Source of the DNA: Candidatus Frackibacter sp. WG13 | Lineage (GTDB): Bacteria > Bacillota > Halanaerobiia > Halobacteroidales > Acetohalobiaceae | Assembly: GCF_900114655.1 (NCBI RefSeq) | Contig: NZ_FOTT01000001.1 | Span: 192,973 to 256,972 of the forward strand | Reading direction: 5' to 3' | Length of the DNA: 64,000 nucleotides | In this document: positions 9,644 through 34,700 of the stretch, one piece after another | How positions within the stretch are numbered: position 1 is the stretch's first letter | Layout of the letters: every line of letters begins with the position of its first letter | Program-made: the position numbers and the translations under genes | Notes under the pieces: model-generated | Database searches by the model: none | What the model was told of the DNA's origin: nothing | Seen by the model: only the letters and a program-made list of their open reading frames with translations

Positions 9644-9674
9644 TATTTTTTCTCCTTTCTTTATATCCATAACT

Positions 9675-9973: not shown

Positions 9974-10013
9974 TAGTCAGCACCTACTCTCTATAATTAT
10001 TCTTAATTTAGAA

Positions 10014-13449: not shown

Positions 13450-13486
13450 ATTCTTCACTCCTAGGTTAAAATCGAATTAATGATTA

Positions 13487-14161: not shown

Positions 14162-14228
14162 TTAAATTACCTCCTCTAGAAAGTATAGTAGGGGAGTTCC
14201 CTCCCCCTCACTATAACTAACAAATTAC

Positions 14229-14951: not shown

Positions 14952-14972
14952 TTAATTCACCTCCGTAGATAA

Positions 14973-17519
14973 TTATATTTTTTCGATTTTAATTCTAGCA
15001 ACTCCACCGTGACGAGCTGTACTTCCACTTAATCGTTCATAATCTGGTGGAAGAATTTCGTTATTATTTCCTCCACGTGGCAATTTATTCTTATAGTCTT
15101 CGCTAGCTACTTTACCGTAAGCCCAATGACCTTGTCCATAACATTTACCTACTGTTCCGGGACGAACACCTTCCCATAATTTAGCTTCACATTCAATCTC
15201 ACCTGTTGGTGAAATAAGTTTAATCTTATCTCCAGTCTTAATTCCTAATCTTCTAGCATCCTTAGGGTTTATCTTAGCTACATCATTCCATGCTTCATCA
15301 CCTGGGTCAACATCTTTTAGCTCTTGGTACCAATTACAGTTAGCCGACCGGGCTTCTCGATTAAGTCGGGATCGATGTTCAAAGAAGATGAATGGATATT
15401 CTCTTTCTTCTCCCCAACGGTATGCTTCTTCATAATGAGGAACAAAAGCTAGTTCTCCTCTGGCTTCATACTTACATGTCTCTAAGATATCATCAATATC
15501 AGTATGATGTTTCTTAGCATGCTTTCCTAAAGCTTTCTTTAAGGTCTCACTATAGAATTCAAACTTACCTGTTTTAGTACCAAAATCATCCCAATTTTGC
15601 TTAAACTTATATGGTTCTGAATTCCAAACTCCAAGCTTTCTCAACTCTTCCCAACCATTTATCTGGTCACCATTAACTTTAATCTTAGGATCCCACAAAG
15701 GTCGAGTACGAATCTTAAGAGCATATTCACTAAATTCACGTTCATTAGTTGGAGACTTTCCTGTTTCTGGGTCTTTAATTTCTTCTTTAAAGTACTTAAG
15801 TAACTTATCATAACCTTTTTCAGCCATCTTCTCAGCTATTAGCCAAGGAACTTCGGTTTCATCCATCTTTACATCCCAAAGTGGTTCAATAACTGGCTGA
15901 TTCATAGTCACATAAGCATAAGTATTAGCTTTAGACTTTACATAACCAAATTTCTCATATTTATGTTGAGCTGCCGGTAAAACAATATCAGCAAATTGAG
16001 TCATTTCCGCTGGATTAGTTGTTATATGAACAAAGAAAGGAAGTTTAGCTAATGCTTCTTCCCATCTATCAGTTCCAGAACAAGAGAAAGCAAAGTTATT
16101 CCAATAACCGATTGCTACTTTAATTTCATAAGGATCTTCATCTAATATAGCATCGGCTGCGTTATTAGTAACAACTCCTTTACCTGATTTACCTTTCTTT
16201 AATGCAGGAAATTCTTTATATCCTCTTTGGTCCATCTTATGATGTTCTAAACCTTTTTTAGCGACTTTATCAAGATACTTCTTATAACCAGGGAAGTCAT
16301 CCACTGGAATATCTGAATGTCTAATACTTCCACCTTTATTATCAACTGAACCGACTAATCCATTAAGGGCATGGGCTGCCATAGCAGTATAGCCACCTCG
16401 AACATGCATTGACGCTCCAGGAGCTAACCATGAGATAACATTCGGTCCTGCTTTAGCAAAGTCAGTAGCAACTCTTTCAATCTGTTCAGCAGGAATTCCA
16501 GAACGTTTTGCTGCCCACTGAGGTGTTTTATCTTTTAGTTCTAAATTCCACCACTTAACTACACCATTAGTATAATTCTCTTTAAAGGTAGATTCATCAA
16601 CTTCTTCCCCTGTCTTAAATCTATTCTTACCATCAACAAAATCACCAACAAATTCTCTATTCCAAAGGCCTTTCGCTAAAATAACATGTGCCATTGCTAT
16701 AGCCAAAGCTCCATCTTCACCAGGAATAACCGGTAACCATTCATCAGCTTTAGCAGCAGTTGCAGAAAGCCTCGGATCCATAACAGCCACTCCTGCTTGA
16801 TCAAGCACATCTCCCCAAGCATTAATAGAATGTGGCACCTGCCGGTTAGAAGCCAATGGATCTGCTCCCCAAAGTAATACATATTTCGTATTTTCTAAGT
16901 CATAATCTCTATAGCCCCAGTATGACTCAGTATAGTATGATCCAAACTTCTCTGCTTCTGCACAGATAGCACTATGAGAAATACCATTTGGAGAACCAAA
17001 AATTTTAGTAAACTTTCCATATAAAATATCTCTCATATAAGTATATCTACCTCGAAAAGTAACATACTTATGTGTCTCATTATTCTTTCGTAGTTCTAAC
17101 ATCTTATCAGCTATTTCTTCAATAGCTTCATCCCAAGTGATTGGTACAAATTTTGGATCTTCATTTCTACCTTTCTTAGGATTAGTCCGTTTCATTGGAA
17201 CTTTAATCCTATCCGGATCATAGACCTGTTGTAATGACATATGACCCCTAGGACATACATTTCCATTATGAGCCTTAGAATACCTATTCCCTTTAACTTT
17301 AATTGCTCTACCATCGACAACCTTTACTTCAACTGGACACCAGGTAGTACACCCCTGACAGGTAGTAGCTTTCCATTCTCCTCCATCAATTGAACCTGAC
17401 TCGTCTTCAGTTAAAGAATTCAAAACCGGATTACGTTTGCATCCAGTAGCACCTAAAGCAGCAAGTCCACCAGTAGTAGCTGCTGAAACCTTCAAAAAGC
17501 TTCTTCTAGTTAATTTCAC
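14973..17519 (-). CDS. arrA: respiratory arsenate reductase catalytic subunit ArrA (molybdopterin, Tat-exported)
   Basis: 848 aa, the usual ArrA length. Tat signal TRRSFLK at 4-10 and a hydrophobic stretch. Fe-S motif CQGCTTWC..CPRG (Cys54, 57, 61, 89). The molybdenum ligand Cys186 lies in SHSAICAEAEKFG. The arsenate-pocket residues described for Shewanella ArrA are all kept at a constant offset of 7: Arg158, Tyr159, His182, Lys191, Tyr203. C-terminal blocks such as FVPHYEEAYRWG and KLWEGVRPGTV also fit. The start is GTG after GGGGGG. The nearby selenate reductase SrdA and arsenite oxidase ArxA belong to the same wider clade, so the substrate is inferred from pocket residues and the ars neighbours. 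Confidence 0.87.
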   Translation of the reverse strand: MKLTRRSFLKVSAATTGGLAALGATGCKRNPVLNSLTEDESGSIDGGEWKATTCQGCTTWCPVEVKVVDGRAIKVKGNRYSKAHNGNVCPRGHMSLQQVYDPDRIKVPMKRTNPKKGRNEDPKFVPITWDEAIEEIADKMLELRKNNETHKYVTFRGRYTYMRDILYGKFTKIFGSPNGISHSAICAEAEKFGSYYTESYWGYRDYDLENTKYVLLWGADPLASNRQVPHSINAWGDVLDQAGVAVMDPRLSATAAKADEWLPVIPGEDGALAIAMAHVILAKGLWNREFVGDFVDGKNRFKTGEEVDESTFKENYTNGVVKWWNLELKDKTPQWAAKRSGIPAEQIERVATDFAKAGPNVISWLAPGASMHVRGGYTAMAAHALNGLVGSVDNKGGSIRHSDIPVDDFPGYKKYLDKVAKKGLEHHKMDQRGYKEFPALKKGKSGKGVVTNNAADAILDEDPYEIKVAIGYWNNFAFSCSGTDRWEEALAKLPFFVHITTNPAEMTQFADIVLPAAQHKYEKFGYVKSKANTYAYVTMNQPVIEPLWDVKMDETEVPWLIAEKMAEKGYDKLLKYFKEEIKDPETGKSPTNEREFSEYALKIRTRPLWDPKIKVNGDQINGWEELRKLGVWNSEPYKFKQNWDDFGTKTGKFEFYSETLKKALGKHAKKHHTDIDDILETCKYEARGELAFVPHYEEAYRWGEEREYPFIFFEHRSRLNREARSANCNWYQELKDVDPGDEAWNDVAKINPKDARRLGIKTGDKIKLISPTGEIECEAKLWEGVRPGTVGKCYGQGHWAYGKVASEDYKNKLPRGGNNNEILPPDYERLSGSTARHGGVARIKIEKI

Positions 17520-17537
17520 AATTGTCCCCCCTTAGTT

Positions 17538-17628
17538 ATTTTTGTCATTGTTAATAAAAAAACTTAAGAATTTAGGAAAGAATATAATATTAATCCTTAT
17601 TTTGCCCCCTCCTTATGATTTTTGTCAT
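17538..17628 (-). repeat. duplicated leader segment upstream of arrA
   Basis: ATGACAAAAAT occurs twice on the minus strand (17628-17618 and 17548-17538), each time followed by a purine-rich AAGGxGGGG stretch. Each could start a short peptide. The second, ending at the arrA GTG with overlapping TGTGA, could couple translation. It may simply be a duplication of the ribosome-site region. Confidence 0.4.
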
Positions 17629-17698
17629 TTTTATTTCTTTAACCTTATTGTATAGTAAATCACAAATAATTTTTATAAGGAGAATCATTTAACTTTGT

Positions 17699-17712
17699 AA
17701 GTGAAATCACTT
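17699..17712. promoter_or_regulatory. palindrome upstream of arrA, candidate regulator site
   Basis: AAGTGA-AA-TCACTT is a perfect 6-bp inverted repeat about 180 bases upstream of the arrA start and just before the terminator of the regulator gene. A plausible -10 (TATACAAT) lies downstream without a good -35, as expected for an activated promoter. It is the best visible candidate for binding the adjacent NarL-type regulator. Confidence 0.35.
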
Positions 17713-17726
17713 AAATAATATATATA

Positions 17727-17764
17727 AAGAGAGTTTATAAGGGAATTCCCTTACAAACTCTCTT
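17727..17764 (-). terminator. terminator of the sensor-kinase-regulator operon
   Basis: Long hairpin with arms AAAGAGAGTTT..AAGGG and CCCTT..AAACTCTCTTT (17727-17743 with 17748-17764, one mismatch region), seven bases after the regulator stop. It is followed by A/T-rich sequence and separates this operon from arrA. Confidence 0.75.
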
Positions 17765-17770
17765 TAATAA

Positions 17771-18496
17771 CTATAATATTCCTTTTTTTATAGCCAAGCG
17801 AACTATTTCAGAACGTTTATTCAACTCCAACTTTTTCATCATTCTAAATTTATGGGTTTCAACTGTCTTTACGCTAATTACTAATTTTTGGCCTATCTGT
17901 TTATTAGTATAACCTTTAGCTACTAATTCAAATACTTCTCTTTCCCTATTACTTAATAAAGAATAATTATCATCTTGATCTTGATTTTCATCTATTTCAT
18001 TTTTATTTTCTTGTTGACAAGATAAACATTTTTCTTTCTGATCTCTGTTTTTTTTATTTATTTTATTATTATCTTCTGTTGTTAAATAATTACTTAGTAA
18101 AATTTTTGTCATTGAAGGATAGATAAAGACCTCTTCTCTATAAACAGCTCTAATAGCAGACAATAATTCAACATCAGCTGCTTTCTTTAATATATAACCT
18201 GAACCACCTGCTTCTAAGGCTTCTTTAAAGTATCCTTCTTCTTCATGGACAGTTAAAATAAGCACTTTGCTTTTTAAATTACTAGCAGTAATCTTACGCG
18301 TAGCCTCCATGCCGTCAATTCCAGGCATAGATAGATCCATTAAAATTACGTCTGGTTTGAGCTTCCGAGCTTTTTTTACTGCTTCTTTCCCATTAGTAGC
18401 TTCCCCAACTACTTTAATATCTGATTCATTATCAAGAAGAGTCATGATCCCTTTTCGAACCAATGAATGATCATCACTTACTAAAACTTTAATCAT
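17771..18496 (-). CDS. NarL/FixJ-family response regulator, probable arr regulator
   Basis: About 241 aa. Receiver domain with phospho-acceptor Asp in [14 protein letters not shown], then a LuxR-type helix-turn-helix ([22 protein letters not shown]). I take the ATG at 18496, which overlaps the kinase stop and follows AGGAGGAG; the longer frame only adds the ribosome site. The linker between the domains is unusually long and polar and holds a CLSC dithiol, which is not typical and could bind metal or arsenite. It pairs with the kinase directly upstream and probably activates arrA, the next gene. Confidence 0.88.
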
Positions 18497-19973
18497 CAAA
18501 CTCCTCCTCAATTACTGATTTATTATCGACCGGTATATTAACATAAATTGTAGTTCCAATCCCTTCTCCTGTTTCAATTGTTAGTTCCCCACCTAATAGA
18601 TCAGCACGTTCTTGCATTCCAAAAAGACCTAAATGTTCTTGAGTTTGATTACTAGTTCTAAAATCCTCTAAATTAAAACCACATCCATCATCCTCTACAA
18701 TAATCAATAGATTCCCATCATTATTATTCATTATAACACTAATATTGTCAGCATCTGCATAGCGAAGAGCATTAGTCAATGCTTCTTGTACAATTCGATA
18801 AACTGTAATCTCTACTTCTTTTGGAAATTTAGTATTAATTAAACCATTAATATGCAACCCTATATCTTTACCCCAATATTCGGATGATTCCTTAATATAA
18901 TTTTCAATAGCCGCTGCTAAACCTAAATTATCTAAAATACTAGGTCGCAACTGCCGAGCTAGCAAATTAATCTCATCTAAGACTTTAGCTATCGTCTTTT
19001 TCATCATCTTTATTCTTTCATTAAATTCTTCTTGTTCATCAGTATTCTCTAAATTAGCTAAAGCTAAATTTAAACTGGTCAATGCTTGACTAGTTTCATC
19101 ATGTAATTCTCTAGCAATTCTTTTTCTTTCTTCTTCTTGAGCCATAATTACCTTATTTAATAAATACTGTCTTCTTTCCTCTTTTTTCTGTAACTGTTTC
19201 CATAATTTTTGCCGTTCAATAGCTGCTCTTTGTAACTTGACAGTCATCTGATTAAAAGCTTGGCCTAACTTCCCTAATTCATCCTCAGCCCAATCTAAAG
19301 ACACTCTATAGTCAAGCTTTCCTGACCCAACTTTTTCTGTAGCAATAACCAATTCACTTAATGGCTCATTAATTAAATTTGCTAAAAAATAAGCAATAGC
19401 AACTCCTAAAAGCGAAACCAATATTGTACTAAACCAAAGTAAATATTTTAGTTTAATTAATGCTTGATTAATATAGATTTCGCTAACTCCGAGCCTAACT
19501 ATTCCATAACGTCCCTGCCAAATAGGTACTGCTATATCATGAATAATTCCATCTTCATTTTTAAAAGTCTTACTACTATAACCTTGATTTGAATTTATCT
19601 GATTAAAACTAATTAATCCTTTAGGAATTTTACTTCCAAAACTATCTGCTACTAATTCTCCTTGCGAGTTAATAACTAAAATATAAGCTAATTCCTGATT
19701 GTTCTGCATTACATCTTTAATCAATTGGTGTAAGCCAAAAAGGTTATTAGTTAATAAGAAATCCTCACTGCGAACTGCCATATATCGAGCCAAGGAAACT
19801 CCCTGCTTCTCTAAATCATTTCTCAACACTTGCGTAAATATATCTCCTGATTCTAAAATTAATAATGATGCTAATAACAAAATTAAAATAATAGCAATCC
19901 CCATGATTTTACCTTTGACTCCTACTAAGTTAAAGAAAGACTTAAATAAATTAGAACGTATTTGATTTATCAT
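18489..19973 (-). CDS. NarX-type sensor histidine kinase
   Basis: 494 aa. Membrane helices at about 23-41 and 177-198 enclose an extracytoplasmic sensor domain. A HAMP linker follows (LINEPLSELVIATEKVGSGKLDYRV), then a HisKA_3 dimerisation helix with His291 in ARELHDETSQALTSL and an ATP-binding domain (VQEALTNALRYA, VEDDGCGFN). It overlaps the binding-protein gene by ATGA and the regulator gene by 8 bases, so the three are one unit. The sensor domain probably reads the state of the PhnD-like protein. Confidence 0.9.
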   Translation of the reverse strand: MINQIRSNLFKSFFNLVGVKGKIMGIAIILILLLASLLILESGDIFTQVLRNDLEKQGVSLARYMAVRSEDFLLTNNLFGLHQLIKDVMQNNQELAYILVINSQGELVADSFGSKIPKGLISFNQINSNQGYSSKTFKNEDGIIHDIAVPIWQGRYGIVRLGVSEIYINQALIKLKYLLWFSTILVSLLGVAIAYFLANLINEPLSELVIATEKVGSGKLDYRVSLDWAEDELGKLGQAFNQMTVKLQRAAIERQKLWKQLQKKEERRQYLLNKVIMAQEEERKRIARELHDETSQALTSLNLALANLENTDEQEEFNERIKMMKKTIAKVLDEINLLARQLRPSILDNLGLAAAIENYIKESSEYWGKDIGLHINGLINTKFPKEVEITVYRIVQEALTNALRYADADNISVIMNNNDGNLLIIVEDDGCGFNLEDFRTSNQTQEHLGLFGMQERADLLGGELTIETGEGIGTTIYVNIPVDNKSVIEEEFDD

Positions 19974-20926
19974 TCTTTTAATTCTCTCCTTAATTTTCGT
20001 ACACTATTATAATCACTATCACTAACTTTTTTATAAGCATCTAAACCCATATTCTTTAATATTTCTTTTCCATTTGGAGACTCATCTAGCGTCATGAAAA
20101 ACTCTTGTAAGTTCTGTTTGATTTCCACATCTAAACCTGGTCTAACTACAACTGGAGGTGTAGTAAATTTTGGAGATTCTTTAACTACCTTTAAATTATC
20201 TTTACCTTGTAAGTTTGTCTTTAAAAGCTGTTGGTAGACCATATGGTCCACTGCAGCTCCATCTACTATTCCTTCCGTAACAGCTTTAATTGAGTTATCA
20301 TGACTATAAGTGAATATATAAGAACTAAAATAATTTTCAGGATTCATTCCTCTTCTTTTAAGAAGTGCCATTGGATAAGTGTAACCTGTAGTAGACATCG
20401 GATCAGTAAAAGCAAATCGCTTTCCTTGTAAATCAGTAAAACTATCAATTCCACTATCCTGTCTAACTAAAATATAAGAACAATATTTTGCCACTCCATC
20501 TTTTTGGGGAGCTGCTAATAATTCTAAACCAAAAGAGTCGTGACCACTAACATAACTAAAAGTGCAAATAAATGCCATATCTATCTCTCCAGCACGTAAT
20601 AATTCATTAACTTCACTATACGTTTTTCGTTGCACTATCTCAACAGGCATATTTAATTTTTTCTCTAATAAAACCAACAATTCTTCATAATAAGTTACAC
20701 TTTCTTTAGTTGACGTAATAGAAGCAAGTGATACACGAAGAGGGTCACTTTTTTTCGTATTATTCGCTTTAACTAATTTCAAATCAGATTTTGCAATTCG
20801 CTCATTGAACGAGACAAATGGATAATCGTTTTCAGTAACTAAAAATTTGTAACCAAAAATAAGACTACCAACTATTATTAAACTTAATATTAAAATTACT
20901 GTAATGGAAATTTTATTCTGCTTCAT
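19970..20926 (-). CDS. PhnD-like periplasmic oxyanion-binding protein, probable sensor partner
   Basis: 318 aa from the ATG at 20926, which follows GGGGG by 8 bases; the longer frame adds 15 unlikely residues. A single N-terminal membrane helix (ITVILILSLIIVGSLIFGY) anchors or exports it. The body is a PhnD/TauA-type binding fold (LRVSLASITSTK, AGEIDMAFICTFSY, GKRFAFTDPMSTTGY). There is no permease or ATPase nearby, so it is a sensor component rather than an importer. In arsenite oxidation the related AioX binds arsenite and signals through AioSR. Here the ligand would be arsenate, arsenite or phosphate. Confidence 0.85.
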   Translation of the reverse strand: MKQNKISITVILILSLIIVGSLIFGYKFLVTENDYPFVSFNERIAKSDLKLVKANNTKKSDPLRVSLASITSTKESVTYYEELLVLLEKKLNMPVEIVQRKTYSEVNELLRAGEIDMAFICTFSYVSGHDSFGLELLAAPQKDGVAKYCSYILVRQDSGIDSFTDLQGKRFAFTDPMSTTGYTYPMALLKRRGMNPENYFSSYIFTYSHDNSIKAVTEGIVDGAAVDHMVYQQLLKTNLQGKDNLKVVKESPKFTTPPVVVRPGLDVEIKQNLQEFFMTLDESPNGKEILKNMGLDAYKKVSDSDYNSVRKLRRELKE

Positions 20927-20970
20927 TTTAAGATTCCCCCTATCTTCTTTATTATAACATAAGTTATACA
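20900..20970 (-). promoter_or_regulatory. probable promoter of the binding protein-kinase-regulator operon
   Basis: The minus strand shows TATAAT about 15 bases upstream of the GGGGG ribosome site (20956-20951), preceded at 18 bases by TTAACT. Match to consensus is partial at -35, so the assignment is tentative. Confidence 0.45.
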
Positions 20971-20991
20971 TAATAGTTAAATAAATTATTA

Positions 20992-22404: not shown

Positions 22405-22917
22405 TTAAATATAATCTTCTAATCTCTTTTTAACTTTTTTATATTTTGCTGTAAGTAATGGACTACAATCTTCTAGTTGATATTCTCCTTTAACAAATTT
22501 AGTAGCAAAAGCTAGACAGGTTACTTCTCCACATTTGCCACAATTTAATTGTGGTAAGTTCTTATATAATTCAGGAACACTTAGATTTTCTTTCGAAGTA
22601 TAATCAGGTTCTATCTGATCTTTATTTTTATAAACACGATTAATCTCATCTTTCACCCAATCTACAAACTTAATCCCTTGGGTAGTATTACTTAGTTCAT
22701 TTAAGACAATTGCTTCTGATTCTAACAAAATAACAGCATCATCTTTTTTTAATTCTAAGCTAGGCTTTTTAGCATAATAGATACTATCTGGATAAGTAGC
22801 ATTTAAATATGGTAGTATTTCACTAATATCTGTGGAAGGACGAGTTCTAAATCTTATCTTAGTTTTATCCGCACCACATCTTCTAATCGCTTCTATTTCA
22901 ATCTTCTTTAAAAACAT
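22405..22917 (-). CDS. 4Fe-4S domain protein, unknown function
   Basis: 170 aa. N-terminal two-thirds (FLKKIEIEAIRRCGADKTKI) I do not recognise. The C-terminal third holds LNCGKCGEVTCLAFATKFVKG and a further Cys (LEDCSPL), the CxxCxxxxC-x16-C 4Fe-4S domain seen at the start of AcsC/RnfB-like proteins. No membrane helix. It lies between a cysteine desulfurase-like gene and an MFS exporter, 91 and 97 bases away, so the desulfurase could build its cluster or both could act on the same sulfur compound. Function is not inferred further. Confidence 0.6.
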   Translation of the reverse strand: MFLKKIEIEAIRRCGADKTKIRFRTRPSTDISEILPYLNATYPDSIYYAKKPSLELKKDDAVILLESEAIVLNELSNTTQGIKFVDWVKDEINRVYKNKDQIEPDYTSKENLSVPELYKNLPQLNCGKCGEVTCLAFATKFVKGEYQLEDCSPLLTAKYKKVKKRLEDYI

Positions 22918-23008
22918 CTCCTCTCCCCCTCTTTTCTACTGAAAATCTTATTAACTAAATAAACCTCAGTTTCTTTACTTTTACTTACACTCACCCCGAC
23001 ACTAACAC

Positions 23009-24151
23009 CTATTTTATTTCTTGCAAAGCCTTAATTAAGTAATCAATCTCTGCTTTAGTATTAAAATAACCAATTCCAATTCTAACAGCACCACCTAATT
23101 CAAAACTACTAATCGTTTTGTGCGCATTAGGAGCACAATGCAGACCAGACCTAACCATAATGCTATATTCACTATCTAATTTATAAGCTACCTCTGCATG
23201 ATCTAACCCTTCTAAATTAAAAGAAATAACTCCGACTCTTTTTGAGACACCTTTTTCACCATAAAGTATTAAACCTTCTATTTTCTCTAACTCAGTTAGA
23301 GCATACTCTATCAATTCTACTTCTTTTGCTCTAATCTGTTTGATTCCTGTATCTAAAATATACTCTACCCCAGCTCCTAAGCCAATTAACCCTACGGTAT
23401 TAATAGTGCCTGCCTCATAGCGATTCGGCAGCTCCTTAGGTGCATATTCAGAAGTAGAATTATTACCAGTACCTCCTGTCTTTAGTGGTTTTAAATCTAT
23501 TCCTTCACTAATATATAGTCCTCCGGTTCCTGTAGGTCCTAACAACCCTTTATGACCAGTAAAAGCTAAAAAATCAATATTCATTTCTTGTACATCGATA
23601 GGATACACTCCCGCTGTTTGAGCTGTATCTAATAAGAAATAAATTCCTGCTCCTTTGGCTATCTTACCCATTTCGATTGCAGGTAATATAGTACCTACTA
23701 CATTGGAAGCATGTAAACAAGCAATTAACTTTGTATTATCTTTAATTTCATTTTCAATTTCATCTATATCAATTTGACCACTACTATTACATTCAATCTT
23801 AGTAATCTCTATTCCTCGGTCTCTTTCTAGCTCTTTTAAAGGTCGCCAAATAGCATTATGTTCTAAGCTAGTAGTAATTACGTGGTCGCCTGCTTCTAAA
23901 AGCCCCTTTAAAGCCAAGTTAATTGCTTCCGTGACGTTATGAGTAAAGACAATTCGAGTAGGATCTGATACATTAAATAATTGAGCTAAACTCTTACGAG
24001 TACCAAAGATAGCCTGTTCTGCTTGAAAAGCTTTTTGATAAGCGCCTCTCCCAGCGCTAACGCCATTATTTTTAAAAAATTCAGACATTTTATCATAAAC
24101 AATATCCGGTTTCGGATAAGATGTCGCTGCATTATCAAAATAAACCTCCAT
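23009..24151 (-). CDS. cysteine desulfurase-like aminotransferase class V
   Basis: 380 aa. PLP enzyme of the SufS/Csd family, closest in pattern to the am_tr_V EF2568-type subgroup. N-terminus MEVYFDNAATSYPKP, PLP-contact TVNV-like THNVTEAINLALKG, catalytic Lys in AFTGHKGLLGPTG, and a Cys in RSGLHCAPNAHKT at the sulfur-accepting position. Start ATG near AAAGAGGTG. Part of the ars section between a redox protein and an Fe-S protein, and a decayed second copy lies at 27480-27780 beside arsR3. It could supply sulfide or cluster sulfur during arsenic stress; that is inference. Confidence 0.88.
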   Translation of the reverse strand: MEVYFDNAATSYPKPDIVYDKMSEFFKNNGVSAGRGAYQKAFQAEQAIFGTRKSLAQLFNVSDPTRIVFTHNVTEAINLALKGLLEAGDHVITTSLEHNAIWRPLKELERDRGIEITKIECNSSGQIDIDEIENEIKDNTKLIACLHASNVVGTILPAIEMGKIAKGAGIYFLLDTAQTAGVYPIDVQEMNIDFLAFTGHKGLLGPTGTGGLYISEGIDLKPLKTGGTGNNSTSEYAPKELPNRYEAGTINTVGLIGLGAGVEYILDTGIKQIRAKEVELIEYALTELEKIEGLILYGEKGVSKRVGVISFNLEGLDHAEVAYKLDSEYSIMVRSGLHCAPNAHKTISSFELGGAVRIGIGYFNTKAEIDYLIKALQEIK

Positions 24152-24305
24152 CTCATTTCACCTCTTTCTTAATCTTTGAATATCATCGCCTAAATAAGCC
24201 TATTACTTATAAGAGTTCATAATCCTCTATGTATTTCTTACCTCAGTTAAAATCATTCTATACTTAATCTCTAGTCTGTGTCTAATCATTTTTTAAGAAA
24301 TCACT

Positions 24306-24347
24306 AAATTTTCCTGCCTGCATCATGCTCATTACAGGCAGGAATTT
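24306..24347 (-). terminator. terminator of the arsR2-arsP-redox operon
   Basis: Strong hairpin with TTCCTGCCTG/CAGGCAGGAA arms and flanking AAATT/AATTT, ending four bases after the redox gene stop. On the minus strand the stem is followed by TTTAGTGATTTC. Confidence 0.8.
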
Positions 24348-24351
24348 AAAT

Positions 24352-24591
24352 TTACAGTTCAGCTTTAATTAATTCTTTAATCTTTGCTACTTTAGGTACT
24401 TGACCTTTAACTTTAACCTCGCCATTAATCTCTAATCCAGGTGTACTTAGTATCCCGGCTTTAGCAATCTCACTCATATCCTCTACTTTCTCTACATTAG
24501 CAGCAACATCTAGTTCAGCTAAAGCATTAATTACATTTTCTTTTAACTTCTCACAATTACGACAACCTGGTCCATAAACTTTAATCTCCAC
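24352..24591 (-). CDS. small thioredoxin-fold redox disulfide protein
   Basis: About 79 aa from the GTG at 24591, which has AAGGAGGTGAG about 8 bases upstream. Thioredoxin-like fold with the dithiol in YGPGCRNCEKLKENV and the cis-proline segment ILSTPGLEINGEVK. This fits the 'redox-active disulfide protein 2' family (about 77 aa). These are typically encoded with ArsP/DUF318-type permeases, and here the gene follows arsP by 105 bases. It may reduce or shuttle trivalent arsenic thiols. Membrane segments are absent, so it acts in the cytoplasm. Confidence 0.85.
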   Translation of the reverse strand: MEIKVYGPGCRNCEKLKENVINALAELDVAANVEKVEDMSEIAKAGILSTPGLEINGEVKVKGQVPKVAKIKELIKAEL

Positions 24592-24696
24592 CTTTAAACT
24601 CACCTCCTTTTTAACAGTGTCAGCAATCAGTGTCAATGATCAGATCCTGACACAGACAACTATCCACTTTCAACTATCAACTATTGTTAGCCTTAA

Positions 24697-25644
24697 CTAA
24701 ATCACTATATTAAACAGATAGCCTACACCAATAATCGATACTCCAACAATAGCCACAAATATCTTAATTAATTTTGGTTTAAGAACTTTACGCAAAATAA
24801 CCATTTCTGGTAAAGATAGAGCTACAGTTGCCATCATAAAACTTAAAGCTGTTCCTGTAGCTACTCCTTTATTCATCAGTGCTTCTACAATTGGAATCGT
24901 ACCTACTGCATTAGAATAGAGTGGAACTCCAAAGATAACGGCTACAATAACAGCAAATGGATTATCTGGGCCAGCATAATTAGCTAAAGCTCCTGTTGGT
25001 ACATAACCATGAATCAAACCACCAATTGCTATTCCAATCATAACGAACTTCCAAATCCTACCTACTATGTCTTTTACCTGATATTTAGCATAATCAATTC
25101 TATCTTTCCATGTCATTGTTGAAACTTCTTCATCTTCCATTTCAATTTCATAAACATAACTTTCTACATATTCTTCTAAGCCTAAATAACCGATTAATAT
25201 TCCACCTACTATTCCTACAGTTACTCCACTAATTAAGTATAGAGCTGCTATTTTAAAACCAAAGATTGAATAAAGTAATACTAATGCTATCTCATTAACG
25301 ATTGGTGAAGTAATTAAAAATGAAAATGTTACTCCTAATGGTACCCCGGATTCAACAAAACCAATAAAGATCGGTACTGTAGAACAAGAACAAAAAGGTG
25401 ATACTACCCCTAAAAAGGCAGCCATGGCATTACCTACAAATAATCGTTTCCCACTTAATAATTTCTTAACCTTCTCTGGTTGAAAGAAACTACGAATAAT
25501 AGAAATCACAAAGATCATAACGCTTAATAATAGAATAATTTTAAGTGTATCATAGATAAAGAAATGTAACGCCTCCGCTAAATGTGCCTTTGGACTTAAA
25601 TTTAACCAGTTATAGACTACTAAATCAGCAAATTCTGTTAACAT
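24697..25644 (-). CDS. arsP: ArsP-family permease (PF03773 type)
   Basis: About 315 aa. I use the ATG at 25644, since the longer frame's first codons are the AGGAGGGG ribosome site itself. About eight membrane helices. The first half holds VSPFCSCSTVPIFIGF with the conserved CxC, and PIVNEIALVLL. The second half has GVPLYSNAVGTIPIVEAL, mirroring the inverted repeat of the family. ArsP pumps trivalent organoarsenicals such as methylarsenite, while other members have unknown cargo. Located 77 bases after arsR2, and with a redox protein downstream. Confidence 0.83.
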   Translation of the reverse strand: MLTEFADLVVYNWLNLSPKAHLAEALHFFIYDTLKIILLLSVMIFVISIIRSFFQPEKVKKLLSGKRLFVGNAMAAFLGVVSPFCSCSTVPIFIGFVESGVPLGVTFSFLITSPIVNEIALVLLYSIFGFKIAALYLISGVTVGIVGGILIGYLGLEEYVESYVYEIEMEDEEVSTMTWKDRIDYAKYQVKDIVGRIWKFVMIGIAIGGLIHGYVPTGALANYAGPDNPFAVIVAVIFGVPLYSNAVGTIPIVEALMNKGVATGTALSFMMATVALSLPEMVILRKVLKPKLIKIFVAIVGVSIIGVGYLFNIVI

Positions 25645-25720
25645 AAGACCCCTCCTCATTCTTCATAATACTAATAACATCATTATATAATAAATTGCTA
25701 ATATATTAGGTGAGAATAGA

Positions 25721-26041
25721 TTATTCTTCCTCTTCTAAAGCAAGTTTCGTTTTATTAATCTGTTTCACTAATAGACTCTTCGCCGAATCTAATATCTCCC
25801 AAATTTCATCATCTTTTACTTTATATAAGACCATAACTCCATCTTTACGACTTTCAACAAGGTCTTGGTCCTTTAAAACCTTTAAATGCTGAGAAATATT
25901 AGATTGACTAAGTTCTAAGGCTTCATAAATATCACAGACACATAACTCCCCTTTCCTTAAAAGACTCAAAATTTGAACTCTTGTCGGATGAGCTAAAGCT
26001 TTGAATAGTTCACTTGTCAGTTTGCTAATTAATGTTGACAT
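25721..26041 (-). CDS. arsR: ArsR-family repressor (arsR2)
   Basis: 106 aa. Winged-helix repressor with the classical As(III) site on the DNA-binding helix: GELCVCDIYEAL (Cys34, Cys36). Recognition helix SQSNISQHLKVL. When arsenite binds, the protein leaves its operator. It is the first gene of the arsP operon. A matching palindrome overlaps its promoter at 26088-26115, of the same type as the one before arsR3. Confidence 0.94.
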   Translation of the reverse strand: MSTLISKLTSELFKALAHPTRVQILSLLRKGELCVCDIYEALELSQSNISQHLKVLKDQDLVESRKDGVMVLYKVKDDEIWEILDSAKSLLVKQINKTKLALEEEE

Positions 26042-28310: not shown

Positions 28311-29387
28311 TTATGCTTTTGATTTTTGCGGAAACCAATGTCTAGTTCGATTGGCTATAGCAACTAAACCTAGCATAACCGGTACTTCAACTAATACACC
28401 AACTACTGTTGCTAAAGCCGCTCCCGATTGCAAACCGAATATTGAAATAGCAGTAGCTACAGCCAGTTCAAAGAAGTTACTAGCCCCAATCATACTGGCC
28501 GGGGCTGCCACTGAATGCTCTAAATTCAACAACTTAGCTCCACCATAACCGATTACAAAGATAAAGAAGGTCTGAATTGTAAGCGGGATGGCAATCAATA
28601 ATATATCAAGCGGATTATTTAAGATAATATCGCCCTGGAAAGAGAATAGAATAATTAAAGTTAATAATAATCCGATAATTGTAAAGTTATCTAGACTCTT
28701 AAGATAGACATTTTCAAACCAGTCAATTCCTTTATTCTTAATCAAATACTTTCGAGACAGATAACCGGCCACTAATGGAATCACAATATAGAGTACTACA
28801 GATAAGAATACCGTATCATAAGGAACTGAAAAATTAGTTACTCCCAATAGTAACATAACCAGCGGAGCATAAGCAAAGACTAAAACTAAGTCATTGACCG
28901 CTACCTGAACTAGAGTATAACTAGCATCACCATCGGTTAAATAACTCCAAACAAAGACCATAGCAGTACATGGTGCAGCTCCTAACAAGATCGCTCCAGC
29001 TATATATTGATCTGCTAATTCTGGTGTAATAAAAGCTCCGAAGATATTCTTAAAGAATAACCAAGCAAAAAAGGCCATCGTAAAAGGTTTAATTAACCAG
29101 TTAACTGTTAAAGTCAAACCTAATCCTTTAGGCCGTTTTCCAGCTTCCAAAATACTGCTAAAATCAATCTGAACCATCATTGGATAGATCATAAACCAGA
29201 TTAAGATTGCTACCGGAATTGATACCTGGGCATACTCAAACTTGCTTAAAGTATCCGGAAAAGCAGGAAATAATTTTCCAATTAAAATTCCAGCAACTAT
29301 ACAGATAGCAACCCATAACGTTAGATACTTCTCAAAAAAGCCTAATCCTTCTGTTTCTTCTTTAACTTCTTTTTTTTCTTGACTCAT
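28311..29387 (-). CDS. acr3: arsenite efflux transporter Acr3
   Basis: 358 aa, ten membrane helices of the BASS superfamily fold. Exports As(OH)3 or arsenite from the cytoplasm. The conserved Cys/Thr motif is in GAAPCTAMVFVWSYL, and the functional Glu region in LVEVPVMLGLV. KFEYAQVSIPVAILIWFMIYPMM is the usual helix-2 segment. It ends the arsD-arsA1-arsA2 operon, so the pump is probably ATP-driven here through ArsA. Start ATG with AAGGAGG. Confidence 0.95.
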   Translation of the reverse strand: MSQEKKEVKEETEGLGFFEKYLTLWVAICIVAGILIGKLFPAFPDTLSKFEYAQVSIPVAILIWFMIYPMMVQIDFSSILEAGKRPKGLGLTLTVNWLIKPFTMAFFAWLFFKNIFGAFITPELADQYIAGAILLGAAPCTAMVFVWSYLTDGDASYTLVQVAVNDLVLVFAYAPLVMLLLGVTNFSVPYDTVFLSVVLYIVIPLVAGYLSRKYLIKNKGIDWFENVYLKSLDNFTIIGLLLTLIILFSFQGDIILNNPLDILLIAIPLTIQTFFIFVIGYGGAKLLNLEHSVAAPASMIGASNFFELAVATAISIFGLQSGAALATVVGVLVEVPVMLGLVAIANRTRHWFPQKSKA

Positions 29388-29451: not shown

Positions 29452-29769
29452 TTATGACCCTTCCACTATAAATCTGATAATTCCTAAAAACCTTTTAATA
29501 TCTAACTCCAGTTTAGTATGGCTATCCATTATTTCATGATGTATATAAAGTATAATATTTGATTTAGTTAACTCTTTATAATCTGCTAAATTTTCTTTCG
29601 CTGGTCTTCCCTTAATTACTTGCGGAGGAGTCTTAGCCCCCTGAGTTGATACAGAAGTCAACTTTCCTCCACAACAGCTATTAATCTTTTGTTCTCTTAT
29701 AATCAAAGCTAAATCTTTCTTTTGTGCATAATTTTTCAGTTCAGAACTAATTATAATCTTCACTGACAT
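29452..29769 (-). CDS. small CC-motif protein, resembling the CC/Se-motif family
   Basis: 105 aa with a vicinal pair in INSCCGGKL (Cys32, Cys33) and no other cysteine. The C-terminal LELDIKRFLGIIRFIVEG is conserved in proteins I recall as 'CC/Se motif (seleno)proteins', where the first Cys may be selenocysteine. That recollection is tentative. It sits between arsA2 and acr3 with its own AAGGAGC site, so a role in trapping or handing over As(III) is reasonable: vicinal thiols bind arsenite tightly. No secretion signal is seen. Confidence 0.6.
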   Translation of the reverse strand: MSVKIIISSELKNYAQKKDLALIIREQKINSCCGGKLTSVSTQGAKTPPQVIKGRPAKENLADYKELTKSNIILYIHHEIMDSHTKLELDIKRFLGIIRFIVEGS

Positions 29770-29798: not shown

Positions 29799-30692
29799 CT
29801 ATTCTTCATATAACTTTTCTCCTGCTTCGATTAAAGTTTCTAATCCTTGAATCTCCTCAGCTAAAAGCGGCATCTTAATAATCGGAGCAGAAAACTTCTC
29901 TTTCATAACTTCTAGCTGTTCGTCCTGCATCTTACTTCTTTTTTTGAAGTAAGGCGTAGTACAGTGCTCTTTTGGCAAAATCTGATTAGCAATAACTAAT
30001 TGGGTCTCTACATCAACCGTCTCTAACTCTTCCACTGCTCGGTGTGCTTCTAAAATCGGAGTGGTTTCCGGATAAACCACAAAAGCAAAAGTAGTCTGTT
30101 CTTTATCCTGTAATTTAGCAATAACTCGTTTAAACCTTTTCTGTGATTCTAAATCAGCTTCAGTACTTGTATTGATCGAGGTCTTAAACTCTAATTGTTG
30201 CTCCCAATTCATCGGTAACTCTAATAAGCGTAAAGTATGACCGGTCGGGGCAGTATCAAAGACAATTACTTCATACTTATCAGCTTCTGTATAATCAATA
30301 AATTTATTAAAGGAAGCCATCTCCTCTGTACATGGAGAATCAAGCTCTTCTTTAAGTCCCATTAACATCTCTTCTGAATAATTCTTCTCTTTAGCGTCAG
30401 CTAAGACATTCTCTTTATATTCTTCAGTTACTTCTTTGGGATCGATCTTAACTATGTCTAAATTATCAACGCCATCTACTTCCGTAACTTCACCTTTTAC
30501 TTCCTGTTCAAAAACATCTTCTAAATGTGAAGCAGGGTCAGTCGTTAAGAGCAAAGTCTTATAACCTTCTCGTGCTAAATAAACAGCAGTTACTGAAGAT
30601 AAAGATGTCTTACCTACACCTCCTTTGCCAGCAAAAAAGAGCAAACGCGTTTCTTTCTCTTGTGGTAATAGTACTTTAGCTGCTTCCTTCAT
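29799..30692 (-). CDS. arsA: arsenite-stimulated ATPase ArsA, second half-type
   Basis: 297 aa, about half the length of E. coli ArsA, which is a fused tandem of two such units. P-loop AGKGGVGKT (21-29) and signature DTAPTGHTLRLLELP are present, and one conserved Cys lies in LDSPCTEEM (Cys121). The second metal-site Cys seen in the partner (TCM) is missing. E. coli ArsA shows the same pattern, Cys113 and Cys172 in half A1 and a single Cys422 in half A2, so this gene corresponds to A2. It starts immediately after the arsA1 stop. Confidence 0.9.
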   Translation of the reverse strand: MKEAAKVLLPQEKETRLLFFAGKGGVGKTSLSSVTAVYLAREGYKTLLLTTDPASHLEDVFEQEVKGEVTEVDGVDNLDIVKIDPKEVTEEYKENVLADAKEKNYSEEMLMGLKEELDSPCTEEMASFNKFIDYTEADKYEVIVFDTAPTGHTLRLLELPMNWEQQLEFKTSINTSTEADLESQKRFKRVIAKLQDKEQTTFAFVVYPETTPILEAHRAVEELETVDVETQLVIANQILPKEHCTTPYFKKRSKMQDEQLEVMKEKFSAPIIKMPLLAEEIQGLETLIEAGEKLYEE

Positions 30693-31577
30693 TTAAGCTG
30701 CCTCCTTATAGAGCATATTAGCGACCTTTCTTAAAACCTCTATTCCTTTAATTTCCTGATCTAATAATTCCATCTTTTTAGCTGGCAAATCAAACTTTTC
30801 ATCTATCTCTGCTAGATATTTCTGCTGCATCTCTCCTCGCTTCTTAAAGAAAGGATTCTTACACTCTTCTTCTGGTAAGATTCCATTAACGATTATTGAA
30901 CTAGTAGCAATTCCGATCTCTGATAGCTCACTACTGGAACGTGCAGTTTCGCGAATGGAGCTGCCTTCAGGCTGCATTACAAAGATAAACTCTGTTCTTT
31001 CCTCATCTTTTAACAACTCAATCGCCCGGTCATACTTCTCTTTAGAATCCTGAATAGTCTGTACCGGCCCCATGCAGGTTTGACCGCTACCTTCAGCGCT
31101 TTCTTCGATATGCTTACTCCAATCAACCGGTAATTCCAATAATCTAATTGTATGGCCCGTTGGTGCTGTATCAAAGATAACCACATCGTATTGATCATCA
31201 TCCATGAAGTCAATAAACCTATCAAAAGAGGCCATCTCTTCAGTACAAGGCGAATTCAACTGTTCTTCAACTACTTCTAACATTTCTTCATTAAATATAT
31301 CACGCATCGGAGCTAGAGTCTTTTCTTTATACTCTTCTGTTGCCTCTTTAGAATCGATCTCCATCGCTGATAGATTATCAATTCCTTCAATTTCTGTTAC
31401 TTGATGACCGATCTCTTGCTCAAAAACATCTGATAAATTAGCGGCCGGATCAGTCGTTACTAAAATAGTATCTAATCCCTGATCAGCATAATAAACAGCA
31501 GTAGTCGACGCCATAGATGTCTTGCCTACTCCTCCTTTACCGGAGAAGAAGATATACTTTGTATCCTCTAAAGTCAT
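30693..31577 (-). CDS. arsA: arsenite-stimulated ATPase ArsA, first half-type
   Basis: 294 aa. P-loop SGKGGVGKT (12-20), DTAPTGHTIRLLELP. Two cysteines equivalent to E. coli Cys113 and Cys172: LNSPCTEEM (Cys111) and GQTCMGP (Cys168), with an extra Cys in EEECKNPFF. Probably forms a heterodimer with the neighbouring arsA2 product around one As(III)/Sb(III) site, then docks on Acr3. ArsD feeds arsenite to it. The start overlaps the arsD stop by one base. Confidence 0.92.
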   Translation of the reverse strand: MTLEDTKYIFFSGKGGVGKTSMASTTAVYYADQGLDTILVTTDPAANLSDVFEQEIGHQVTEIEGIDNLSAMEIDSKEATEEYKEKTLAPMRDIFNEEMLEVVEEQLNSPCTEEMASFDRFIDFMDDDQYDVVIFDTAPTGHTIRLLELPVDWSKHIEESAEGSGQTCMGPVQTIQDSKEKYDRAIELLKDEERTEFIFVMQPEGSSIRETARSSSELSEIGIATSSIIVNGILPEEECKNPFFKKRGEMQQKYLAEIDEKFDLPAKKMELLDQEIKGIEVLRKVANMLYKEAA

Positions 31578-31900
31578 TATTCTTCCTCCCTAATCTTATT
31601 GATTTCTGCTCTTAATTTTTCTAAAGTTGGATATTCTCTCATTTCAATTATTTTACCATTAACGGTAGTAATCGGTAAATCATCTGTTCCTTTATTATTT
31701 ACTGCATCCAAAATTGATTGGTTCTGCTGAAAAGCAAAAGGATTATGATTCATCGAATTTCTTTCTACTTCAACCCCTTCCTTTTCTAACTGTTTTAGTG
31801 CGTCATTAAACTGAACTAATTCATCATCTACATCCGGGCCACATACTCCTGTGGAACAACACATCGGCGGTTCATATACTTCTACTTTAATTTTACTCAT
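31577..31900 (-). CDS. arsD: arsenite metallochaperone ArsD
   Basis: 107 aa from the ATG at 31900 with AGGAGG 9 bases upstream; the longer frame adds 13 unlikely residues. The thioredoxin-like fold is preceded by the arsenite-binding triad EPPMCCSTGVCG (Cys12, Cys13, Cys18). ALKQLEKEGVEVERNSMNHNPFAF is the family's middle segment. ArsD passes As(III) to ArsA. It lies between arsR1 and arsA1, in the classical operon order. Confidence 0.95.
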   Translation of the reverse strand: MSKIKVEVYEPPMCCSTGVCGPDVDDELVQFNDALKQLEKEGVEVERNSMNHNPFAFQQNQSILDAVNNKGTDDLPITTVNGKIIEMREYPTLEKLRAEINKIREEE

Positions 31901-32005
31901 TTTAATAATTCCTCCTCGTAAAGTATTAAATTTACACATAAAATTTATAAATGTAAAAGAAGCTACATATAAAACACCTTTGATATGTTCATTAAAAAAC
32001 TATTC

Positions 32006-32329
32006 TTACTTCTCTTCTCTACATTTCTGGCTAGGTTCAGCCTGAGTATAATTTTCTTTTAATTCTCCTGATTTTTGAGCTATGGCTTTAAATAACTTGA
32101 AAATTTTTTCATTTAATGAATAGTAAATCCATTTACCATCTCGATTAGTATTCACCATTTCTGCTTCCTTTAGTATTTTTAAATGATGAGAAATTCTTGG
32201 CTGTGACATAGCCAATTCTTCTTGTAACTCACAGACACAAAGCTCACCACAAGATAAAAGTTCAATTATTCTTAATCTAGTTTCATCAGCTAATACTTTT
32301 AAAAATTTTACTAATTCTTCTTCTTTCAT
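32006..32329 (-). CDS. arsR: ArsR-family repressor of the arsDA-acr3 operon (arsR1)
   Basis: 107 aa. Classical As(III) site SCGELCVCELQEEL (Cys27, Cys31, Cys33) on the DNA-binding helix, followed by recognition helix SQPRISHHLKIL. An extra Cys lies near the C-terminus (SQKCREE). Directly upstream is a promoter with the palindrome CATATAAA-N6-TTTATAT, shared with the promoter of the orphan molybdoenzyme further upstream. It heads the efflux operon and is 106 bases from arsD. Confidence 0.94.
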   Translation of the reverse strand: MKEEELVKFLKVLADETRLRIIELLSCGELCVCELQEELAMSQPRISHHLKILKEAEMVNTNRDGKWIYYSLNEKIFKLFKAIAQKSGELKENYTQAEPSQKCREEK

Positions 32330-32346
32330 GTTAGGCTTCTTCCTTT

Positions 32347-32406
32347 CATATAAAAAAACTTTTATATAACTATTACAAATATAACATATAAATTATTCTT
32401 AGTCAA
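32347..32406 (-). promoter_or_regulatory. arsR1 promoter with CATATAAA-N6-TTTATAT operator
   Basis: Minus strand: -35 TTGACT (32406-32401), 17-bp spacer, -10 TATATT (32383-32378). The palindrome CATATAAA-N6-TTTATAT (32347-32367) lies ten bases past the -10, next to the ribosome site. The same core and spacing are found before the molybdoenzyme gene at 34641-34661. Confidence 0.85.
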
Positions 32407-32433
32407 ACAAATTTAAAATTAAGTTTTTATCAT

Positions 32434-34587
32434 TTAAATAGAATTAATTGTTACTGTTGTTTCATTTAAATATGAAACTCCACTGATCGGGTCAAGCTTA
32501 AGATTATCAACCAAACGATTAATATTTGCCCCTTGACCTTTAGCTACTCTTAAATTTTCGGAAGTATGACCAAATCCATGAGAAGCTTGTACCACTCCTG
32601 GTCTAATTTCACTAGTTACTTTGGCAGTTAAAGTTACTCTATCAATTTCGGAGCTAACTACTACCTCTTCTCCATCTCGAATTTCTCGTTCTTTTGCATC
32701 TTCTGGATTAATCAACAAAAAGTTCTTGCCTTCTCGATTCATCAAAGTTGGTAAGTTTTGAGTAGTACTATGCGTATGACATCGTAATTTACCGGTAGTA
32801 ATTAACTTCAGCTTATCATTATCAGTTTGCAATTCATAAACAGGAGCTTGATTACCACCGACCTGTAAAAATTCTTTAACTAAATCAGATTCCATATCTT
32901 CATCTAAAGTAAAATTAAACTTACCATTCAAAAGCCGCCCATAACGATAATATTTAGGTTCATCATAGTTATTAGCTAACCAAATCCCTTTTCTTTTAAG
33001 TTCTTCTAGTTGAACTCTACTACCATCGATTTGTTCTATATCTAGCCTCATCTTTAAATAAGATTCTATATCATCTTCATCAAAATTTTGGAACGAATCA
33101 TATCCTAATAATTTGCCTAACTTAACAAAAGTCCAGTATCCTGACTTGGCATTATATTGTGGTTCAACAACCTTTTGATACATAGTTAAAAGTGCTCCAT
33201 TAGAGTATTGTTTAACCACTTCGCGTCTTTCTAAATAAGTAGTATCCGGTAAAATAATACTTCCAACTGGAAATGCTTCTAGAGTATCAGTCTGATAAAT
33301 ATCATAACCTACCGCAAAATCTAAATGGCTTAGAGCCTTTCTCCATCTTTCACTATTAGCATCAGCTAATATCGGGTTAGTAAAGTAAATAAAAGCTCCT
33401 TTTATTCCCTGCCCATTATATAAAGAAGTAATCTTTTCTTCTAATAACGGCCCTGTAGGAACATGACCAGGGTTTAAAATAGCCTCAGGAATCAAACCTC
33501 TACAACCATAACTGGCCGTTAAATTGCTAAAACCTACTTCTTCATGTAATGGTTTAGCTTTAATATTATTTGTGAATTTAGGAGATTTTAATCTACCTTC
33601 TTCTCTAAAAACCATCCCCCCTGGTGCATCTACACTACCTACTAAAGCATTCAAGCAAGCAACTGCTCGGTGAGCATCTATTCCTTGTCTTTGATTATCT
33701 AATCCAGTCCATGAATCAGCCAATTGCCGCTTGCTTTTAGCAAATCGACGCGCAATAGTATAGATCGTCTCTGTGTTAACACCAGTAATTTGTGACACAT
33801 TTTCCGGATTATATTTCTTCTGCATTACTTCAGCTTTAAAACTAGTAAAGCCTCTACTATACTTATCAATAAACTCCTGATTATATAACTTTTCTTCAAT
33901 GATTACTTGAGCTAAGCTTAACGCTAATGCTCCATCAGTTCCCGGCTTGACTGACACCCATAAATCAGCATTTTTAGCGCTCTTAGTCTGTCGCGGATCA
34001 ATTACTACTAGCTTAGCACCTCTTTTTACAGCATTTTTAACATCTTTAAAGAAATAAAACCATTTATGAGCCTCCAAAGGATTAGCTCCAAATAGAAGAA
34101 TATAATCTGAATTTTTAAAATCGGGTAAAGGACGGTAATCATTATAAGTTAATTTTTTAGCTAAACGTCGATTAGCATCACAAATACTAGTATGAGCAAA
34201 TTGATTAGGAGTTCCATAAGATTTAGCTAAACCTTGGAATAACTCTTTATAAGGTGGCGTCGGTCCCCACATAAAAAGGAAAGACTCTGGACCATATTTA
34301 TCTTTAATATGATTCATTCTCTCTACTATTATTTGCAAAGCTTCATCCCATTCTATTGCTTCCCAGTTATTTTTATCAATCTTCTTTTTAGGTTTTAAAA
34401 GACGATCAGAATCATAGAGTTGTTCTAAACCCGCTAACCCTTTTGGACATAGTTGGCCTTCATTAAAAGGGTGTGATTTATTACCAGTAATTTTGATTAC
34501 TTTATTGTCTTCTATAGTAACCTCTATACCACATTTTCCTCCTTGACACATTACACAGGATGAAAAAACTTTATTTTTTTCTCTCAT
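32434..34587 (-). CDS. orphan cytoplasmic molybdopterin oxidoreductase (PsrA/PhsA-like)
   Basis: 717 aa. Bis-MGD enzyme of the DMSO-reductase family. Fe-S motif CVMCQGGKC..CPKG (Cys11, 14, 19, 47), with an unusual x4 spacing. Probable molybdenum ligand Cys136 in FAHTSICDANRRL. ILPDTTYLERR, ALVGSVDAPGG and HTHSTTQNLPTL are typical of the polysulfide/thiosulfate-reductase clade. There is no Tat or Sec signal, and no Fe-S or membrane subunit gene follows. The start ATG has AGGAGAT. It has its own promoter and an operator shared with arsR1, and the operon next to it handles arsenite. Whether it reduces arsenate, oxidises arsenite or acts on a sulfur-arsenic compound cannot be told. Confidence 0.85.
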   Translation of the reverse strand: MREKNKVFSSCVMCQGGKCGIEVTIEDNKVIKITGNKSHPFNEGQLCPKGLAGLEQLYDSDRLLKPKKKIDKNNWEAIEWDEALQIIVERMNHIKDKYGPESFLFMWGPTPPYKELFQGLAKSYGTPNQFAHTSICDANRRLAKKLTYNDYRPLPDFKNSDYILLFGANPLEAHKWFYFFKDVKNAVKRGAKLVVIDPRQTKSAKNADLWVSVKPGTDGALALSLAQVIIEEKLYNQEFIDKYSRGFTSFKAEVMQKKYNPENVSQITGVNTETIYTIARRFAKSKRQLADSWTGLDNQRQGIDAHRAVACLNALVGSVDAPGGMVFREEGRLKSPKFTNNIKAKPLHEEVGFSNLTASYGCRGLIPEAILNPGHVPTGPLLEEKITSLYNGQGIKGAFIYFTNPILADANSERWRKALSHLDFAVGYDIYQTDTLEAFPVGSIILPDTTYLERREVVKQYSNGALLTMYQKVVEPQYNAKSGYWTFVKLGKLLGYDSFQNFDEDDIESYLKMRLDIEQIDGSRVQLEELKRKGIWLANNYDEPKYYRYGRLLNGKFNFTLDEDMESDLVKEFLQVGGNQAPVYELQTDNDKLKLITTGKLRCHTHSTTQNLPTLMNREGKNFLLINPEDAKEREIRDGEEVVVSSEIDRVTLTAKVTSEIRPGVVQASHGFGHTSENLRVAKGQGANINRLVDNLKLDPISGVSYLNETTVTINSI

Positions 34588-34638
34588 ATCTTTTTATCTC
34601 CTTCTATCATTTAAAGTTTATTTCTTTCTTATCCTTTT

Positions 34639-34700
34639 AACATATAAATGAATTTTTATATGTTATTTAAAATTATAACAGACTAAATTTACTGCGTCAA
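34639..34700 (-). promoter_or_regulatory. molybdoenzyme promoter with ArsR1-type operator
   Basis: Minus strand: -35 TTGACG (34700-34695), 17-bp spacer, -10 TATAAT (34677-34672). The perfect inverted repeat AACATATAAA-N6-TTTATATGTT (34639-34664) lies seven bases past the -10, over the expected start point. Core CATATAAA-N6-TTTATAT is identical to the arsR1 site. It is the strongest regulatory match in the island. Confidence 0.88.

Follow-up and report, generated by a model that had tools for sequence, protein, structure and literature searches.

A Solitary Cytosolic Molybdoenzyme Predicted to Share an ArsR Operator with an Arsenite Efflux Operon in Candidatus Frackibacter

In the 64,000-nucleotide stretch of Candidatus Frackibacter sp. 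WG13 that was analysed here (the window), the gene for a 717-aa oxidoreductase carries at its promoter the operator-like palindrome of the neighbouring arsenite efflux operon, and, to judge from these sites, derepression of the enzyme by As(III) via the repressor ArsR1 is very likely. The gene would thereby be the first member of an ArsR1 regulon. It is also likely, at slightly lower confidence, that the product is a cytosolic molybdenum or tungsten enzyme fed by a soluble carrier. The reading as a whole, in which the enzyme is a cytosolic reductase within the ArsR1 regulon, derepressed by As(III) and fed by ferredoxin, with arsenic(V) slightly favoured as its substrate, has in our judgement an even chance of being right.

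The ars Operon and Its Repressor

The window codes for ArsD, two ArsA proteins, Acr3 and several ArsR proteins. On the minus strand, arsR1 (32006–32329; NF033788, 108 bits; HTH_5) encodes an ArsR/SmtB repressor with the As(III)-sensing CxC motif ELCVCEL and the recognition helix SQPRISHHL. On the same strand are arsD (31577–31900; NF033727, 117 bits, above the cut-off), a first copy of arsA (30693–31577; TIGR00345, 281 bits), a second copy (29799–30692; TIGR00345, 238 bits) and acr3, which encodes the arsenite efflux transporter (28311–29387; TIGR00832, 412 bits, above the cut-off). The arsD reading frame opens at 31939, and a comparison with the sister gene makes 31900 the likely start. The molybdoenzyme gene (32434–34587, minus strand) lies directly upstream of arsR1 in the same direction, and its transcription could read through into the ars operon.

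Between arsA and acr3 lies a gene for a 105-aa protein with a CC/Se motif (29452–29769; NF041239, 35.7 of 40 bits); no CC/Se-motif gene was seen in the arsA–acr3 gap of the sister genome. A second cluster, at 22405–26041, combines another ArsR of the CxC type (25721–26041) with an ArsP_1 permease (24697–25659), a Thioredoxin_3 protein, a class-V aminotransferase resembling cysteine desulfurases and an Fe-S protein. The palindrome CATATAAA is absent upstream of this second ArsR gene.

The Operator at Two Promoters

An earlier note on this DNA had attributed to both arsR1 and the molybdoenzyme gene a promoter with a TTGAC-type −35 box, a 17-bp spacer and a near-consensus −10 box, followed 7–10 nt later by an identical core. 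Both promoters were found on the minus strand, TTGACT-N17-TATATT at 32378–32406 for arsR1 and TTGACG-N17-TATAAT at 34672–34700 for the molybdoenzyme, each with the TG of an extended −10 box in addition. The core is exact at both, and the distance, measured along the coding strand from the −10 box to the start of the operator, is 9 nt at each, a phasing that is identical in all four promoters (arsR1 and molybdoenzyme, in two genomes).

In the arsR1 promoter, where the operator spans 32345–32370, the core CATATAAA-N6-TTTATAT matches exactly at 32347–32367 (plus strand). In the molybdoenzyme promoter, where the operator AACATATAAA-N6-TTTATATGTT spans 34639–34664, it matches at 34641–34661 on both strands and is therefore a perfect palindrome. 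Between arsR1 and arsD there is a third operator-like site (31964–31989), with a single mismatch in its core at 31966–31986; it is kept in the sister genus. A perfect CATATAAAATCAATTTTATATG palindrome was also seen (L067, position 12567) in G275, a member of the family without the 717-aa enzyme.

One explanation of the likeness between the two promoters would be accident, or the leftover of a promoter duplication, the enzyme itself being constitutive or otherwise controlled. The genome is AT-rich, and matches with up to three mismatches to the operator pattern, of which 24 were observed in the AT-rich window against 20.9 expected, occur at chance level; it is therefore exactness that matters. 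Exact matches are found at just two places in the 2.77-Mb genome, namely the arsR1 and molybdoenzyme promoters, where Markov models trained on the window predict 0.13 (first order) or 0.07 (third order). Since this pattern was itself taken from these two sites, a fairer test is a 26-bp matrix for which only the sites at arsR1 and arsD in two genomes were used, with the molybdoenzyme site left out. When the window and further stretches of the same genome were scanned (124,623 positions), the molybdoenzyme site scored 24.6 bits versus about 14.15 bits for the best other non-ars position, a gap of 10 bits. Other near-matches of the palindrome in the genome (C14, C25 and C42) had no arsenic context in those inspected. 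Outside their boxes, moreover, the arsR1 and molybdoenzyme promoters are unlike, and this speaks against recent copying.

Conservation in the Sister Genus

The sister genus (G363), from the same family, encodes an orthologue of the 717-aa enzyme that is 87% identical and adjoins arsD. The two genomes carry different genes beyond the enzyme, which is therefore the edge of the shared block. In the promoter of the orthologue, both boxes and the palindrome arms are kept, whereas the centre and flanks have diverged, and this retention of the promoter–operator block amid differing flanks speaks for regulation by ArsR1. All three palindromes (arsR1, arsD and molybdoenzyme) are kept with changed centres, and the exact operator matches in this second genome lie only at the arsR1 remnant and at the molybdoenzyme.

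The word remnant points to a difficulty. In the sister genus, arsR1 has been lost through an internal deletion that leaves a short remnant, with the promoter and both flanking palindromes kept (L009, 1237–1491), which weighs against the regulatory reading and is what an accidental likeness would allow. The same genome encodes elsewhere an ArsR that is 66% identical and has the same SQPRISHHL helix, and this second protein could act in trans on the kept palindromes. Given that the exact sites are unique in two genomes and that the arms persist while their surroundings change, we consider an accidental or leftover likeness very unlikely.

The operator that the earlier note had proposed as common to arsR1 and the molybdoenzyme gene is thus upheld by a genome-unique exact pair, identical phasing, the matrix test and conservation in the sister genus; this operator evidence and the ELCVCEL sensor of ArsR1 also argue for the arsenic induction of the enzyme that the note had put forward. 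In the mechanism that we favour, for whose regulatory step the sequence evidence is strong, ArsR1 would occupy the 10-6-10 palindrome, which at the ars operon and at the molybdoenzyme gene alike lies over the point where transcription likely starts; As(III) bound at its CxC site would make it leave the operator, and the enzyme and the pump would be made together.

A Molybdoenzyme without Leader or Partner

The assignment of the 717-aa protein as a Mo/W-bisPGD oxidoreductase is based on Pfam, the open frame, AlphaFold2 and Foldseek. Its three MopB domains, in the order Molybdop_Fe4S4, Molybdopterin and Molydop_binding (all above the Pfam cut-off), make it a member of the DMSO reductase (MopB) superfamily, and the fold agrees: the AlphaFold2 model (pLDDT 87.4, pTM 0.91) has as its top Foldseek match the polysulfide reductase of T. 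thermophilus (2vpw, TM 0.82), which is also the top PDB sequence match, and as its second match ArrA (6cz7). The Fe-S ligands are C11, C14, C19 and C47, and alignment predicts C136 as the Mo ligand. The CxxC-x4-C motif to which attention had been drawn is present, but other superfamily members show the same spacing and it is not diagnostic of a new class. A histidine four residues before the metal cysteine, considered as an arsenate signature, proved uninformative, since it also occurs in PhsA and in several uncharacterised enzymes.

The stop-to-stop frame is 719 aa long, which leaves no room for a Tat leader and makes one impossible; the earlier note had given the enzyme as lacking a Tat signal. 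It had been equally right about subunits for electron transfer or anchoring: no partner subunit gene and no ferredoxin-type gene adjoins the molybdoenzyme gene. The sequence itself places the enzyme in the cytoplasm. It would work without a dedicated partner, and a soluble carrier, in all probability ferredoxin, would supply electrons to its one Fe-S cluster.

The gene is under purifying selection that is weaker than that on arsA and arrA: by comparison with the sister-genus orthologue, its dN/dS is 0.17 (dS 0.45), versus 0.03 for arsA and 0.06 for arrA.

Relatives and Distribution

In a tree of 48 rows that included references for Fdh, Nap, Dms, Psr, Phs and Arr, a clade (100/99) unites the enzyme and its sister orthologue with two Tat-type enzymes of another Bacillota family. 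This clade lies, on its own branch in the best tree, inside the Psr/Phs-Arr-Srd superclade (96/98), a grouping of Cys-ligated enzymes that act on sulfur, arsenic and selenium compounds (PMC7331816); its members here are reductases of arsenate, polysulfide, thiosulfate or selenium oxyanions, each of them having Cys as metal ligand. A protein of Mesobacillus selenatarsenatis (L069) was set aside as SrdA because the gene order makes the neighbouring 1048-aa gene the likelier candidate.

Kinship with formate dehydrogenase, which the earlier note had named as an outcome that would go against it, was rejected (AU p = 4.4e-48 for grouping with FdhF; score below the TIGR01591 cut-off). An identity as ArrA was rejected as well (AU p = 9.5e-5 for grouping with ArrA; NF041714, 174 of 1600 bits). 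Grouping with Psr/Phs was not rejected (AU p = 0.16); the PhsA profile gave 366 of 694 bits, below its cut-off. Together with the two Tat-type enzymes, the 717-aa enzyme is best placed on a small separate branch beside the polysulfide and thiosulfate reductases.

High-identity matches were found in 2 of the 59 genomes of the class, the other matches there being about 32–33% identical. In a sample of the phylum, 4 of 398 genomes gave a match at E ≤ 1e-100, two of these being the Tat-type enzymes just mentioned. A contig-wide search gave nothing above 33–34% identity among the matches listed, and the best rows from a plasmid collection were below 30%. Across these searches, high identity to the enzyme was thus seen in two genomes. 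The sister orthologue stands beside arsD; in the flanks of the two Tat-type relatives (L010 and L011), as far as examined, no ars genes were noticed.

These relatives, 41% identical over the full length and the closest found apart from the sister orthologue, differ from the 717-aa enzyme in having an SRKSFLIG leader and a CxxC-x3-C spacing. Their operon includes TorD, TatA/TatC, a DmsB-like ferredoxin subunit and a Sulf_transp gene (YeeE/YedE-type), a context that speaks for sulfur or selenium as their substrate. That a sulfur transporter stands next to the nearest relatives, and that these have Tat-like leaders, weakens the claim of an arsenic enzyme.

Arsenic as Substrate or as Signal

Another possibility is indeed that arsenic is the signal and not the substrate, and that a cytosolic polysulfide or thiosulfate (or selenium-oxyanion) reductase was recruited to the ars regulon because arsenic stress demands more reduced sulfur or the removal of polysulfide. 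The top sequence and structure match to the T. thermophilus enzyme, the AU result for Psr/Phs and the operon of the 41% relatives all agree with this, and we regard it as a serious contender, though one with clearly less than an even chance. However, the 717-aa enzyme has an ars operator and neither leader nor partner, such that the role of the relatives may not transfer to it, and neither genome has a sulfur gene next to it. PsrA and PhsA themselves (T. thermophilus 2vpw; Salmonella PhsA) have the same fold, the Cys metal-ligand region and the N-terminal Fe-S cluster, at an identity of about 28%, but they are exported and work with ferredoxin and membrane subunits; the leader and the B and C subunits typical of them are absent here.

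In the reading that we prefer, the most probable activity of the enzyme is the reduction of an oxyanion or a sulfur compound relevant in arsenic stress. Arsenic(V), as arsenate or thioarsenate, is a modest favourite over polysulfide or another chalcogen, held at a little under even confidence; the As(III) formed from it would be handed to ArsD, ArsA and Acr3. An As(V) reductase in the cytosol is what would ordinarily supply Acr3. Against an arsenate role, the RGRY block that precedes the metal-ligand region in ArrA reads WGPTPP in the alignment of the 717-aa enzyme. ArrA belongs to the same superclade but is an exported, two-subunit enzyme, whereas the 717-aa enzyme has neither Tat leader nor ArrB partner.

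The earlier note had also pointed to the lack of an arsC gene in the island. This extends to the whole genome, where no Grx-type ArsC (PF03960) was found and where the sole PF01451/TIGR02691 match, below the ArsC cut-off for the pI258 type and in a housekeeping context, is the only LMWPc protein, a phosphatase of the housekeeping type. Nevertheless, the argument drawn from it is weakened because in three relatives that bear acr3 but lack the enzyme, no pI258-type ArsC exceeds the cut-off either. In the five family genomes, acr3 is present in all, a pI258-type ArsC above the cut-off in none and the 717-aa enzyme in two (the PF03960 search was confined to the window's own genome among the five); the enzyme is therefore not required for efflux. 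The missing ArsC was accordingly rejected as proof of substitution: it permits an ArsC-like role for the enzyme and does not demand one. The specific proposal that an As(III)/ArsR-switched Mo enzyme takes the place of ArsC, using ferredoxin electrons to reduce intracellular arsenate or thioarsenate, is tentative, and we put it clearly below an even chance.

A third possibility is the reverse reaction, the cytoplasmic oxidation of As(III) or thioarsenite as detoxification, with electrons passing to a soluble carrier. It is suggested by a Soe-like cytoplasmic molybdoenzyme of Thioalkalivibrio, described as lacking a Tat signal and induced by As(III), for which co-oxidation of As(III) or thioarsenate oxidation has been proposed (PMC6620896). 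As portrayed in that source, the Soe-like enzyme differs from the present one in being a heterodimer with a membrane anchor from an oxidising sulfur bacterium, and its description there does not place it in an ars operon (PMC6620896). Against this possibility, the island of the 717-aa enzyme contains an arrAB-like operon for arsenate reduction (14229–17519, on the same contig, about 15 kb away), and the enzyme has no close kinship to AioA. A low-potential carrier makes the oxidation of As(III) unfavourable, and Acr3 does not export As(V). An oxidative role seems to us highly improbable.

The arr genes form part of a respiratory arsenate reductase-like operon at 12250–20971, which encodes an ArrA-like protein of 848 aa (NF041714, 1197 bits over the full length, below the cut-off of 1600), an ArrB-like protein, a TorD-like chaperone, a polyferredoxin, a PhnD-like protein, a histidine kinase and a response regulator; ArrA-like proteins are also present in two relatives. 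Genes for Mo cofactor and molybdate transport (moeA-like and modC-like) occur near it (window 8429–11105), and inspection of the sister contig (L165, 1–5683) revealed moaA-, moaC-, modA- and modB-like genes near the arr-like operon there.

Precedents and Significance

That an ArsR controls a molybdoenzyme along with a detoxification operon has already been reported: in Shewanella ANA-3, one ArsR serves both ars detoxification and arr (Murphy and Saltikov 2009, as cited in PMC6683785). The target in that account is the exported respiratory ArrAB, whereas here it would be a solitary cytosolic enzyme in another lineage. What appears to be new is the presence of such an enzyme, from an undescribed branch, inside a predicted ArsR regulon, and no published description of an ArsR-linked solitary cytosolic enzyme of this kind was found in the openly licensed literature.

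In the literature surveyed, the molybdoenzymes of arsenic are exported and respiratory, and cytosolic arsenate reduction is credited to the thiol-dependent ArsC. The operator tie to the arsenite pump makes molybdenum-based arsenic detoxification in anaerobes directly testable and gives a regulatory handle on the function of a new branch of the superfamily. If the proposal is true, a Mo enzyme would do in these anaerobes what thiol-dependent ArsC does elsewhere.
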